DNA from: Mesorhizobium sp. J18 | Lineage (GTDB): Bacteria > Pseudomonadota > Alphaproteobacteria > Rhizobiales > Rhizobiaceae | Direction: 5' to 3' | Length of the DNA stretch: 40,403 bases | NCBI RefSeq assembly: GCF_007829525.1 | Contig: NZ_VLJP01000004.1 | Coordinates: 109 to 40,511, forward strand | Part shown: in pieces, positions 7,558 to 13,553 of the stretch | How the letters are laid out: every line of letters starts with the position of its first letter | Numbering within the stretch: the stretch's first letter is position 1 | Translations under genes and position numbers: made by a program | Notes under the pieces: generated by a model | Database searches by the model: none | Told to the model about the DNA's origin: nothing | The model's input: only the letters and a program-made list of their open reading frames with translations

Positions 7558-7683
7558 TCACCGACAAGACGGCGGCGTTTTCAGGTATTCGATCACTTCG
7601 GGCTCCTCGCCCGACTGTCGGAGCATGACGAGCACATTGCGGGAAGTCCCGCAGGCAGGATCGTGGTAGATCGTCATCGTCAT
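7558..7683 (-). pseudogene. arsC: Glutaredoxin-type arsenate reductase ArsC, truncated after 41 residues
   Basis: The start overlaps the acr3 stop by four bases (ATGA), a sign of translational coupling. The product begins MTMTIYHDPACGTSRNVLVM and reaches VIEYLKTPPS, the true N-terminus of the glutaredoxin-coupled ArsC family with its catalytic cysteine in CGTSRN (Cys11). The frame then ends in CR-stop, whereas intact enzymes have roughly 115-140 residues and use three C-terminal arginines to bind arsenate. The C-terminal two thirds are absent, so activity is not expected. The breakpoint near 7566 is probably a deletion or insertion junction that also removed whatever lay downstream. Confidence 0.85.
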
Positions 7684-8786
7684 TCTGCAGGGCTCCTTGC
7701 CTGGGACGCGGTCACGGCCGGGGCCCGCTCGTACCAATCACGGCTACGGTTCACGATCCATACCACGGAAAGCATTACGGGAACCTCGACCAGCACCCCG
7801 ACCACGGTAGCGAGCGCGGCCCCCGAACTGAAGCCGAACAGGCTGATGGCGGCGGCCACCGCGAGCTCGAAGAAGTTCGATGCGCCGATCAATGCCGACG
7901 GTCCCGCAATGCCATGCTGCTCGCCCGAAGCGCGGTTGAGCAGATAGGCCAGACCGGAATTGAAATAGACCTGGATCAAGATCGGTACCGCCAGCAGGGC
8001 GATAATGAGAGGCTGTGCGATGATCTGCTGGCCCTGAAAGCCGAAGAGAAGAACCAGCGTTCCCAACAGCGCGACAAGGGACAGCGGCTGCGCTTTCCGC
8101 AAGAATGCCTGGAGCGCTTTCTCCCCTCCTTTTGCCAAGAGGTTTCGCCGCATGACTTGCGCGATAATGACCGGAATGACGATGTAGAGGACTACCGACA
8201 GGGCGAGTGTGCCCCAGGGGACCGTGATGGCCGACAGTCCCAACAGCAGGCCGACGATCGGCGCAAAGGCAACCACCATGATCGCGTCGTTGAGGGCGAC
8301 CTGGGACAGGGTGAAATGGGGTTCGCCCTTGGTCAGGTTCGACCATACGAATACCATCGCCGTGCAGGGGGCCGCCGCCAGGATGATCAGCCCCGCAATA
8401 TAGGAATCGATCTGCTCCCCAGGAAGATATGGCCTGAAGAGCCAGCCGACGAAGACCCAGCCGAGCACCGCCATCGAAAAAGGCTTCACGGCCCAGTTGA
8501 CGAACAGCGTCACCCAGATTCCGCGCCAGTGCCTGCCGACCTCGCCCAACGCCCCAAAATCGATTTTCAGGAGCATCGGGATGACCATCAGCCAGATGAG
8601 CATGGCAACCGGGATGTTGACCTTGGCGATCTCGGCACTGCCGATCGCATGGAAAAGTACTGGCATGAGATGACCGAGGGCGATGCCCGCGACTATGCAG
8701 AGCACAACCCAGAGGGTCAGGTATTTCTCGAAAGGGCCCATCCTGGCCGGATTTGTCTCGCGGGCCGCGGCTGCGCCTTCAGTCAT
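7680..8786 (-). CDS. acr3: Arsenite efflux permease ACR3
   Basis: The 368-residue membrane protein belongs to the ACR3 (bile-acid/arsenite symporter) family, with ten expected transmembrane helices, and extrudes arsenite using the proton-motive force. The essential cysteine of TM4 is seen in LAAAPCTAMVFVWS and the conserved glutamate of TM9 in GASNFFELAVA. The start at 8786 (MTEGAAAARE) is chosen because GGAGA lies ~6 bases upstream; a frame from 8864 would overlap arsC. It lies 16 bases after arsC and overlaps the truncated second arsC, forming one operon under ArsR control. Some annotations call this gene arsB, but ArsB is a different family. Confidence 0.93.
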   Translation of the reverse strand: MTEGAAAARETNPARMGPFEKYLTLWVVLCIVAGIALGHLMPVLFHAIGSAEIAKVNIPVAMLIWLMVIPMLLKIDFGALGEVGRHWRGIWVTLFVNWAVKPFSMAVLGWVFVGWLFRPYLPGEQIDSYIAGLIILAAAPCTAMVFVWSNLTKGEPHFTLSQVALNDAIMVVAFAPIVGLLLGLSAITVPWGTLALSVVLYIVIPVIIAQVMRRNLLAKGGEKALQAFLRKAQPLSLVALLGTLVLLFGFQGQQIIAQPLIIALLAVPILIQVYFNSGLAYLLNRASGEQHGIAGPSALIGASNFFELAVAAAISLFGFSSGAALATVVGVLVEVPVMLSVVWIVNRSRDWYERAPAVTASQARSPAE

Positions 8787-8802
8787 GGGATTCTCCGGTT
8801 GT

Positions 8803-9312
8803 TCACCCAGCTTGCGGCAGGTCGCGGCCGATCTCGTCCAGACGCTTCTTGAGCGCCAGCCCATCCAGCGTTTTCAGGGGCAGCGCAGTGAAGATCGATA
8901 TGCGGTTGTTGAGCATTCGGTAGGCTTCGGCAAATGCCAGGTGCTTTTCGGCATCCGTTCCCTCGGCCCTGGCAGGGTCAGGGACACCCCAATGGGCCGA
9001 AATCGGCTGTCCGGGCCATACTGGACAGGTTTCGTTGGCGGCATCATCACAGACCGTAAATACGAAATCCGTTTTGGGAGCACCAGGTCGTGCAAACTCA
9101 TCCCAGCTTTTGGAGCGGGCGAAGGACGTGTCGTAGCCCAGGCTTTGAAGAAGCTGGACAGTATAGGGATGGACCTCTCCTTTCGGATTGGAGCCGGCCG
9201 AAAAGGCCCGGAACTTCCCCTGCCCCGCACGGTTCAGGATCGCCTCCGCCAGGATGGACCGCGCGGAATTCCCCGTGCAGAGGAACAGCACATTCAACGC
9301 TGGTTCGCTCAT
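8803..9312 (-). CDS. arsC: Arsenate reductase, low-molecular-weight phosphatase type
   Basis: This 169-residue enzyme reduces arsenate to arsenite in the cytoplasm. It has the phosphatase P-loop CTGNSARS (nucleophile Cys12, Arg18), two further cysteines suited to the disulfide relay (Cys88 in FTVCDDA and Cys96 in ETCPVWPG), and the general acid in WGVPDPA. It is unrelated in fold to the glutaredoxin-type ArsC whose fragment lies downstream, so the operon once carried two different arsenate reductases. It sits 10 bases after arsR and 16 before acr3. A C-terminal extension (~25 residues after TALPLKTLDGL) is common in rhizobial members. Confidence 0.92.
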   Translation of the reverse strand: MSEPALNVLFLCTGNSARSILAEAILNRAGQGKFRAFSAGSNPKGEVHPYTVQLLQSLGYDTSFARSKSWDEFARPGAPKTDFVFTVCDDAANETCPVWPGQPISAHWGVPDPARAEGTDAEKHLAFAEAYRMLNNRISIFTALPLKTLDGLALKKRLDEIGRDLPQAG

Positions 9313-10212: not shown

Positions 10213-11439
10213 TCAGCCGAACCCGATCAGAACGCCTCCGATTGCGGCAATAATGACCACGATCCATGGCGGGCTTTTCCATGCTGTGAGAAGTACAAAG
10301 CAGGTCAGCGCCAGAGCGAATTCATAGCCACCGGCAATGGCGCTGGTCCAGACCGGCTGATAGAGAGCTGCCCCCAGGATACCGACAACCGCCGCATTGG
10401 CGCCGCGCATGAGCGCCTGCGCCATGGGTCGGGTTCGAAACATGTCCCAAAAGGGAATAATCCCGACCAGCAGCAGAAATCCCGGCAGAAAGACGGCGAC
10501 AAGCGCAATCGCCGCCCCGGCCAATCCGTTCGGCTCTGGACCAAGCACCGTGCCGAGATAGGCGGCGAAGGTGAAGAGCGGACCGGGCACAGCCTGCGCA
10601 GCGCCATAGCCGGCCAGGAACTGGTCGGCGTTTACCCAGCCCGAGCGGACGACTTCAGTCTCCAGCAGGGGAAGCACCACATGGCCGCCGCCAAAAACCA
10701 GCGAGCCGGCACGATAGAAAGAATCGAAAATTGCCAGACCTTGTGCAGAAACGCCCGCAGTGAGGATTGGCAGGCACAACAGCAGGACAAAGAACAGCAA
10801 TAGAGCAGCCACACCAGCGGCGCGTGAAACAGGAAAGCTGACGTGGCTCGCGATCGCCTCACCATCGGACCGGCACAACCACAGCCCGGCAAGACCGCCG
10901 ATGACAATCGCGGCGATCTGTCCGAACGAGCCGCCGACAAGCGTCACGACCAGAACCGCCCCCAGCGCAATGCTGGCGCGCTCCCGATCGGGGCAAAGAC
11001 TTCTTGCCATGCCCCAGACGGCCTGGGCAACGATAGCCACGGCGACCACTTTCAAGCCATGGACGATGCCTGAGCCGATCGGTCCATCAAATGCTGCCGC
11101 CCCGAAGGCAAACAGGACCAGCAGGATCGCCGAGGGAAGCGTGAAGCCTGTCCAGGCGGCTGCCGCCCCCAGCGCGCCGCCACGAAGAAGCCCAAGCGCA
11201 AAGCCCACCTGGCTTGAGGTAGGCCCCGGCAGAAACTGGCACAGCGCCACCAGATCCGCATAGCCTTTTTCGTCGATCCAGCCCCGGCGCACAACGAGTT
11301 CGTCGCGAAAGTAGCCGAGATGGGCAATCGGCCCGCCGAAGGATGTCACACCCAGCTTCAAAAAGGCTGCAAAGACCTCGCTTGCTCTTCCCTTCGGATT
11401 GTTCAGGCGCGGGGTTGCTTCGATCGCAGTATCATTCAT
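10213..11439 (-). CDS. chrA: Chromate transporter ChrA (two-domain)
   Basis: The 408-residue membrane protein is a long-chain CHR-family transporter that exports chromate. It shows both homologous halves: the N-terminal signature LGVTSFGGPIAHLGYFRDE with LCQFLPGPTSSQVGFALG, and the C-terminal copy SLVFGGGHVVLPLLETEVV with GAAQAVPGPLFTFAAYLG. Around a dozen hydrophobic segments are visible. The usual regulator gene chrB is not seen upstream. The 255 bases before the start hold only a short minus-strand frame ending about 11445 (AALADPDEAWIVLPSGQPSG) that may be the tail of a lost gene. Only a weak ribosome-binding site (AAGG) precedes the ATG. Confidence 0.93.
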   Translation of the reverse strand: MNDTAIEATPRLNNPKGRASEVFAAFLKLGVTSFGGPIAHLGYFRDELVVRRGWIDEKGYADLVALCQFLPGPTSSQVGFALGLLRGGALGAAAAWTGFTLPSAILLVLFAFGAAAFDGPIGSGIVHGLKVVAVAIVAQAVWGMARSLCPDRERASIALGAVLVVTLVGGSFGQIAAIVIGGLAGLWLCRSDGEAIASHVSFPVSRAAGVAALLLFFVLLLCLPILTAGVSAQGLAIFDSFYRAGSLVFGGGHVVLPLLETEVVRSGWVNADQFLAGYGAAQAVPGPLFTFAAYLGTVLGPEPNGLAGAAIALVAVFLPGFLLLVGIIPFWDMFRTRPMAQALMRGANAAVVGILGAALYQPVWTSAIAGGYEFALALTCFVLLTAWKSPPWIVVIIAAIGGVLIGFG

Positions 11440-12935: not shown

Positions 12936-13250
12936 TTCTTCCTGCCTCTTTATCCGGCTCGTCAGACCTATTTGTTTCCACATCGATAACATAGATGTGA
13001 TCGACCGCCAGGAGGATCTTGTCCCATTCGATCGACCACCTCGTAGCCCGGCAATCATTCACATGTCGAGAATCCGAGCTTGTCGTCGTATCTGCGGTGG
13101 AAATCCATCTGGACCGCAATTCCGGCCCATTTCATGGGAAGGTCACAGAAGCAATCTATGCGATGTTTATCGGACGAGGTCCCATCGCCCAGACAGGCGG
13201 CACCTGCGCACATGCGACAAAAATGCTCATCCTCTATGCATTTATGATAC
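12936..13250. other. Intergenic stretch upstream of the sRNA, no gene seen
   Basis: The stretch contains the leader and presumed promoter of the dehydrogenase gene on the minus strand and, at its right end, the approach to the sRNA promoter. An 85-codon plus-strand frame (13019-13276) has no ribosome-binding site or known likeness and runs into the sRNA promoter. Confidence 0.4.
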
Positions 13251-13278
13251 TTGCCAAAAGCTTGGGCAGATTCTAGAT
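13251..13278 (+). promoter_or_regulatory. Predicted sigma-70-type promoter of the sRNA
   Basis: TTGCCA (13251-13256) and CTAGAT (13273-13278) are separated by 16 bases. They fit the rhizobial housekeeping consensus (CTTGAC, then CTATAT) and would start transcription at about 13284-13286, just before the first sRNA hairpin. Confidence 0.55.
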
Positions 13279-13283
13279 TTGGA

Positions 13284-13401
13284 TCGTCGGTGATCTACCT
13301 CCTCCCAGAAAGCCGACAGACTGATGCGGTGCTCCTCCTCCCGCGCCGCAATTCAGATTGAAGCCCGCCGCTCCTCCTCCCGCGGCGGGCTTTTCTTTTT
13401 T
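13284..13401 (+). ncRNA. Trans-acting sRNA of the alpha-r14 type (three anti-SD loops)
   Basis: The motif CCTCCTCCC occurs three times, at 13298-13306, 13334-13342 and 13373-13381, each exposed in the loop of a hairpin. Hairpin 1 pairs GTCGG (13286-13290) with CCGAC (13313-13317). Hairpin 2 pairs 13325-13332 with 13343-13350. Hairpin 3 pairs GCCCGCCGC (13363-13371) with GCGGCGGGC (13382-13390) and is followed by TTTTCTTTTTT, an intrinsic terminator. Three anti-Shine-Dalgarno loops and a ~120-nt length are the hallmark of rhizobial alpha-r14 RNAs (Sinorhizobium NfeR1), which block ribosome binding on ABC-transporter and other mRNAs. No protein-coding frame explains this conservation-like symmetry. 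Start and exact family membership are inferred. Confidence 0.82.
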
Positions 13402-13409
13402 GTCGAAAA

Positions 13410-13553
13410 TCAGCCGACAATCCGGGTCGGAACCGGGCCAGGGTCCGGTGCCGGGTCCGGGGGGATCGGGCGCGGAATGGGCGGCTCCGGATCGGGAGTG
13501 GGAAAAGGTCTGGGCGGCGTTGCGATCATGTCCGTCCAACGCGCGGGGATCAT
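13410..13553 (-). CDS. Proline-rich mini-protein, 47 residues
   Basis: The product has an N-terminal stretch MIPARWTDMIATPP, then about 16 prolines in 35 residues in P-x-P-x-P order (PFPTPDPEPPIPRPIPPDPA), ending PVPTRIVG. It would form a rigid polyproline-II rod. GAGGA lies 7 bases before the ATG, which favours real translation. It is isolated by the terminator of the NAGGN operon upstream (13581-13620) and ends 8 bases from the terminator of the oppositely oriented sRNA, so it must have its own promoter between 13554 and 13580 or be reached by read-through. Function is unknown. Confidence 0.55.
   Translation of the reverse strand: MIPARWTDMIATPPRPFPTPDPEPPIPRPIPPDPAPDPGPVPTRIVG

Follow-up and report, generated by a model that had tools for sequence, protein, structure and literature searches.

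The window RNA is a further member of the αr14 family

The closest described system to the RNA studied here is NfeR1 (Smr14C2/SmelC397, RF02344) of Sinorhizobium meliloti, which has three hairpins and three CCUCCUCCC loops. According to the parts of the published reports on which we draw, NfeR1 silences mRNAs via these loops, ntrB among them, and its predicted targets are mostly transporter mRNAs (PMC10746234). It affects both osmoadaptation and nitrogen metabolism (PMC10746234, PMC7143759). Sites in its promoter were published at -116 and -72, and the same passages state that the promoters of Agrobacterium and Brucella show no evident NtrC-type site (PMC10746234). Of the six αr14 copies of S. 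meliloti, only one is reported to be reliably detected by northern blot (PMC7143759). SmelA075 and SmelA099, as described in sections of PMC3927594, are multicopy RNAs with three or four CCUCCUCCC-loop hairpins, fragmented microsynteny and variable stems. Hairpins sharing a conserved loop motif are also found in the cuckoo RNAs (PMC4504443, PMC10253847) of the CIN1 locus, which consists of DUF1127 plus CcsR-like RNAs; an example is ccaF1-CcsR1-4 of Rhodobacter sphaeroides. A text search for αr14 found nothing in the available parts of PMC12218461 or PMC11975290.

We analyzed a 40,403-nt stretch of the Mesorhizobium sp. J18 genome, referred to here as the window. A preliminary description had proposed an αr14-like RNA in it and suggested a covariance-model search. 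That search (cmscan against Rfam 15) matched ar14 (RF02344) at 13279-13397 on the + strand with 78.1 bits, above the gathering score of 58.8 (E 1.4e-12). The match is full length, covering model positions 1-123, and it was the sole match above gathering score in the whole window. We conclude that the window RNA is an ordinary αr14 sRNA and a further member of a known family.

The genome itself (4.26 Mb) has three αr14 copies above the cut-off, scoring 97.2, 78.1 (the window copy) and 64.1 bits, as well as four weaker ar14 matches (E 0.01 to 9.4). When relatives were searched, with this genome included, 46 of 61 genomes had an ar14 match at E <= 0.1 and 37 had one above the cut-off. All 20 genomes reached via 20 of the 80 NAGGN loci discussed below also had a copy above the cut-off, whereas none of the 14 control genomes did, nine of them having a match at E <= 10. 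Judged by its NAGGN peptidase, the genome is nearest to Chelativorans and Nitratireductor among named relatives, at 79-87% identity. Tandem arrays of 2 to ~5 αr14 copies were present in several genomes (G020, G023, G027, G035) and loci (L120, L122-L126, L133; here and below, G numbers denote genomes, L numbers loci and C numbers contigs).

Three motif loops lie in three hairpins with covarying stems

The motif CCTCCTCCC occurs three times on the + strand, with starts at 13298, 13334 and 13373 and a span of 13298-13381, and in the predicted fold each copy occupies the loop of a separate hairpin. Hairpin 1 extends over 13286-13317 with its motif loop at 13298-13306, hairpin 2 over 13321-13356 with the loop at 13334-13342, and hairpin 3 together with its T tract over 13360-13401 with the loop at 13373-13381 (all + strand). 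The core of the motif, CTCCTCCC, had no further occurrence in the window when both strands were searched. The CTCCTCCC count itself is not unusual (1.73 expected per window; three or more in 31 of 100 shuffles), but the triple cluster, defined as three copies that share a 100-nt stretch and are separated by 20 nt or more, did not appear when the window was shuffled 300 times with dinucleotides preserved. For the 118-nt segment the predicted folding energy is -52.6 kcal/mol (z = -6.6); none of 200 shuffles folded as well, and the motif bases have an unpaired probability of 1.00 (rounded) in the predicted ensemble. The three loops in three hairpins that the preliminary description had reported are thus borne out by coordinates, fold and shuffles alike. 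It had also placed a terminator at the end of the RNA, and the predicted third hairpin (13360-13393) is terminator-like, with a 12-bp stem followed by a TTTTCTTTTTT tract. This hairpin looks like one that doubles as an intrinsic terminator in the modeled structure; a generic terminator scan had a loop limit of 8, and therefore hairpin 3, with its 10-nt loop, was unlisted.

The stems of αr14 RNAs are variable yet covarying across relatives. We extracted 22 αr14 copies and aligned 15, including the window copy, leaving out seven of the L117 type, and RNAalifold on this alignment gave the same three hairpins. Over the 22 pairs, 93.3% of cells were standard pairs (shuffle mean 82.9; none of 500 as high), with fewer events than cells because L024, L131 and some other copies are closely related. 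Sixteen of the 22 pairs were changed on both sides (shuffle mean 8.4; none of 500 as high), and the covariation score was 0.452 compared with 0.262 in shuffles, which again was matched in none of 500. Of five covariation measures, one did not stand out: the 29 further pair types were equalled or exceeded in 84 of 500 shuffles. The covariation signal was lost when the partners were slid along, a comparison biased towards the structure because this alignment also produced it. Because the alignment rows were chosen for three loop motifs, loop conservation arises partly from the selection of rows, and the independent evidence for the loops is the Rfam model matches rather than their conservation in the alignment.

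The putative promoter region differs in site layout from that of NfeR1

As the preliminary description anticipated, a promoter-like sequence precedes the RNA. This predicted element, CTTGCC-N17-CTAGAT, lies at 13250-13278 (+ strand) and has two mismatches to CTTGAC-N17-CTATAT, taken here as the promoter consensus. The literal published NfeR1 promoter string, CTTAGAC-N17-CTATAT, has five mismatches in the window. A generic promoter scan returned a single weak match at the promoter-like boxes (9/12; 0.4 expected in the region). Judging from the position of these boxes, transcription would start near 13285.

An upstream element, TGCGACAAAAATGC-N7-CTATGCATT, lies at 13213-13242 (+ strand) with the same spacing as in other standalone αr14 promoters. 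It is a weak match to a PWM for a TGCA-AT-rich-TGCA-type element, built as an EM motif from 40 other promoters sorted as standalone; the window score of 8.3 was reached by 9 of 1000 mononucleotide shuffles and exceeded by 33 of the 40 training sequences. Two TGC-N11-GCA sites are also present on the + strand. Site 1 (13224-13240) is in a register common to 13 of the 40 other standalone-sorted promoters, and site 2 (13252-13268) is 28 bp downstream of it and overlaps the -35 region. Counting the window, 14 of 41 promoters have an exact TGC-N11-GCA 70-85 nt before the first motif, where 0.13 is expected from mononucleotide shuffles. The two-site layout recurs in L170 and L172. L024, L131, L117 and L140 have the 28-bp-spaced pair too, but with the extra site on the upstream side. 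L024 hardly differs from L131, and a single genome (G061) contains both L117 and L140, so the independent 28-bp pairs are fewer.

The window RNA resembles NfeR1 in its terminator-like last hairpin, its own promoter-like sequence and its full-length match to the model. Unlike NfeR1, the promoter region of the window copy shows no exact LsrB motif TGCA-N6-GCAT; the best upstream match to it has three mismatches, and the in-register PWM match is weak. The NtrC-type site TGC-N11-GCA at -116 to -100 is likewise absent: in the window promoter region exact sites occur only at 13224 and 13252, and otherwise there is a match with one mismatch at 13186. The TGC-N11-GCA sites of the window instead lie at about -61 and -33, and the likeness to NfeR1 is one of family. 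The copy of S. meliloti 4H41 (L118) has TGC-N11-GCA and TGCA-N6-GC[AG] 44 bp apart, agreeing with published NfeR1. A tentative and, in our estimate, rather doubtful proposal is that the window copy belongs to a roaming, self-promoted αr14 subclass of Chelativorans and Nitratireductor, in which NtrC or an LsrB-type regulator would repress or activate the promoter directly at the two TGC-N11-GCA sites. If this were true, αr14 would be under nitrogen control outside the plant symbionts as well, through a site layout unlike that of NfeR1.

αr14 copies occur in three genomic settings

The three copies of this genome each have a different setting. The 97.2-bit copy (L001) immediately follows a DUF1127 gene (PF06568; 46 aa) and has tRNA-Leu(UAG) nearby, and the gene on its other side is presumably trmFO. 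The 64.1-bit copy follows a phasin gene (PF09361), starting 16 nt past its stop codon, and has tRNA-His(GUG) downstream. The window copy is standalone: its neighbours are an SDR gene on one side and the NAGGN peptidase gene on the other, and no DUF1127 gene lies just upstream among the flanking genes examined. The two other copies occupy places also seen in relatives. A single genome with DUF1127-linked, phasin-linked and standalone αr14 thus offers a convenient set for studying function copy by copy.

These settings place the window copy among the described systems. With the cuckoo/CIN1 RNAs it shares hairpins that carry a common conserved loop motif, and the DUF1127-linked copy (L001) of the same genome resembles the CIN1 layout, whereas the window copy lies elsewhere. 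It does not lie in a DUF1127 3' region and, unlike CIN1, would need no processing from an mRNA. We found no essential difference from SmelA075 and SmelA099, as far as the available sections of PMC3927594 describe them, and the window copy adds a member with three hairpins from a further genome.

We sorted 98 distinct three-motif copies by upstream regex into 41 standalone, 45 DUF1127-linked, 9 tandem and 3 phasin-linked copies, where the 41 include at least two misplaced rows (L022 and L034, DUF1127-linked in another sorting) and copies with degenerate motifs, including most of those linked to phasin, are not counted. In 11 loci selected for weak scores or phasin-like tails, a phasin gene (PF09361) was upstream of αr14 in 10 (the exception being L176), and all 10 had tRNA-His(GUG). 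The distance from phasin gene to αr14 was 9 to 22 nt in eight loci, 118 nt in L180 and 190 nt in L174. This class comprises the copy of the genome studied here (L003:1023-1613, C90) and L174, L175, L177, L178 and L180-L184, and its genera besides our own are Nitratireductor, Aquamicrobium and Corticibacterium. The phasin-linked copies, in which the third loop is often degenerate, look like products of the 3' end of the phasin mRNA. The word phasin has no occurrence in the available part of PMC3927594 and the class is unmentioned in the passages of PMC8401924 that we used; the only paper found to name phasin together with NfeR1 concerns another sRNA, MmgR.

Many DUF1127-linked copies across genera lie near tRNA-Leu(UAG) (for example L001, L014, L018, L023, L027, L120, L122-L126, L128, L132-L134, L136 and others), a location that may therefore be ancestral for the family. 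Several DUF1127-linked loci (for example L017, L021, L127, L129) had no tRNA-Leu(UAG) within the flank examined. We rejected tRNA linkage as a general αr14 trait, as it is found mainly at DUF1127- and phasin-linked loci. A few standalone loci lie beside other tRNAs (L157, L164, L166, L172, L173), none of 29 control loci showed tRNA linkage, and cmscan gave no Rfam tRNA match in the window.

The adjacent NAGGN operon does not indicate the role of the RNA

The preliminary description had placed the RNA next to the NAGGN osmolyte operon. The three NAGGN genes are indeed there and genuine, since TIGR03106, TIGR03103 and TIGR03104 each scored over the curated cut-off. The operon runs on the - strand, convergent with the RNA, with the peptidase stop codon 373 nt away. 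After the peptidase gene, a GC-rich, terminator-like hairpin with a T run lies at 13621-13588 (- strand); it was judged by eye, its segment has z = -1.3, and with a 14-nt loop it was unlisted by the generic scan.

We searched 80 NAGGN peptidase loci of other genomes and found none in which a 70-nt span of either strand contains at least two CTCCTCCC, the matching place being covered in 75 of the 80 (L047, L060, L070, L080 and L096 have <500 nt downstream) and 13 of the 80 loci being <9 kb, with a contig end cutting one flank. The place of the window copy beside NAGGN genes was not found in other genera. Comparison of 12 window proteins with the αr14 loci (~1.5 kb flanks; longer in our own L185 and L186) showed no common neighbours except an SDR paralogue; apart from the own locus, this one distant paralogue (28.8% identity) was the sole match. 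Predicted pairing of the loops with NAGGN start regions was -9.0 to -11.4 kcal/mol, compared with -10.0 for an ordinary SD and -11.6 for the SDR gene.

Because none of the 80 loci carried the RNA, the operon is convergent and the start-site pairing is ordinary, the location gives no support for an osmotic role, and the stress role that the preliminary description had read from this adjacency is not supported. The position beside salt-stress genes looks like chance. An osmotic or nutrient stress role may be considered because published NfeR1 has one (PMC10746234, PMC7143759), not because of the location. Thus, the preliminary description was right about the αr14 identity of the RNA (RF02344, above gathering), and the meaning that it drew from the neighbouring operon is not supported (0/80). 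More generally, adjacency to a stress operon says little about the role of an sRNA.

Two further features of the region were observed. Genes for an ACR3-type arsenite efflux transporter and a chromate efflux transporter lie near the sRNA on the - strand (7680-8864, 10213-11439). A 47-aa proline-rich ORF follows the NAGGN peptidase gene (13410-13553, - strand), and its last 39 aa match a similar place in Aureimonas (L060, L061, L064; best E 3e-6 among the matches listed), a result that was obtained with the low-complexity filter and composition correction off and may be due to chance.

A trans-acting sRNA is the favoured explanation

We consider it probable that the window encodes a trans-acting αr14 (NfeR1/cuckoo-type) sRNA of ~115 nt, with its own σ70-type promoter and ended by the third hairpin. 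Here this reading is based on sequence, predicted fold, covarying stems, family membership and copy number. If the RNA acts as NfeR1 does, its three exposed CCUCCUCCC loops would base-pair with the purine-rich Shine-Dalgarno sequences found in numerous mRNAs, transporter mRNAs being prominent among them, and this pairing would block translation. The three loops would be mutually redundant, and synthesis would increase under nutrient, probably nitrogen, stress. By analogy, translation blocking in trans is most likely the mechanism.

A degenerate or silent αr14 paralogue, that is, a stray copy with a decaying promoter and no regulatory role, is in our view an unlikely explanation, and several observations speak for it. 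The place of the window copy was common to none of the loci examined whereas the two other copies of the genome lie at places seen in relatives, its upstream element scores low, and it is a weaker match than the DUF1127-linked copy (78.1 and 97.2 bits, respectively). In addition, because only one of six S. meliloti copies is reported to be reliably detected by northern blot (PMC7143759), the window copy could be little expressed. Nevertheless, the three loops and all stems are intact, including the 12-bp terminator stem, and the promoter-like boxes and the in-register TGC-N11-GCA site have been retained.

We regard it as very improbable that the RNA belongs in cis to the NAGGN osmolyte operon, as its regulator or its 3' end. 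The peptidase stop codon 373 nt off and the presence of three NAGGN genes would fit such a role, but the RNA is missing from all 80 loci elsewhere (75 with the place covered), the operon is convergent and has its own terminator-like hairpin at 13621-13588, and the start-region pairing of -9.0 to -11.4 kcal/mol does not stand out from the -10.0 of an ordinary SD. The chance that the segment is a fortuitous GC-rich repeat without RNA function is negligible: CTCCTCCC is expected ~1.7 times per window, yet the triple cluster arose in none of 300 shuffles, the covariance-model E value is 1.4e-12, and relatives show compensatory changes. The trans-acting sRNA is therefore our preferred reading, and it adds one more well-formed αr14 RNA.

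Shine-Dalgarno complements and possible targets

The genome has 42 matches to GGGAGGAG-N3-9-ATG (41 distinct sites), compared with 6 for the reversed pattern. We examined 30 of the 42 sites, 22 of which precede an open reading frame of 100 aa or more, and scanned 19 of these 22 proteins. Transport proteins accounted for 5 of the 19, namely three ABC ATPases (L193, L195, L215) and two DctP solute-binding proteins (L217, L218). L197 and L205 had no match at the thresholds used, and the remaining twelve are enzymes, regulators, a sensor kinase and a beta-propeller protein. One of the matches (L203) falls on the L001 copy of the RNA, in antisense.

We rejected GGGAGGAG-ATG as a specific target signal, as it is also frequent in several order-level genomes without a copy over the cut-off. 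In G038, which has no ar14 match at E <= 0.1, there were 12 matches versus 4 in the control. Two genomes with sub-cut-off ar14 matches only gave 25 versus 4 (G041) and 36 versus 6 (G046), where the weak matches might be real relatives, so that this comparison is not clean. Because GGGAGGAG is frequent without an αr14 copy, the sites show neither targeting nor co-evolution. Nor does ntrB stand out as a target: its predicted pairing is modest (-11.7 kcal/mol, where an ordinary AAGGAGG gives -10.0 and an 8-bp site -16.3).

An SDR gene elsewhere in the genome (L219, C44:16292-16309) has a Shine-Dalgarno sequence that is a perfect 8-nt complement of αr14. Pfam identifies the protein as SDR only, and we presume that it resembles acetoacetyl-CoA reductase. 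Together with the phasin-linked copy, this gene hints at a link between αr14 and polyhydroxybutyrate storage.
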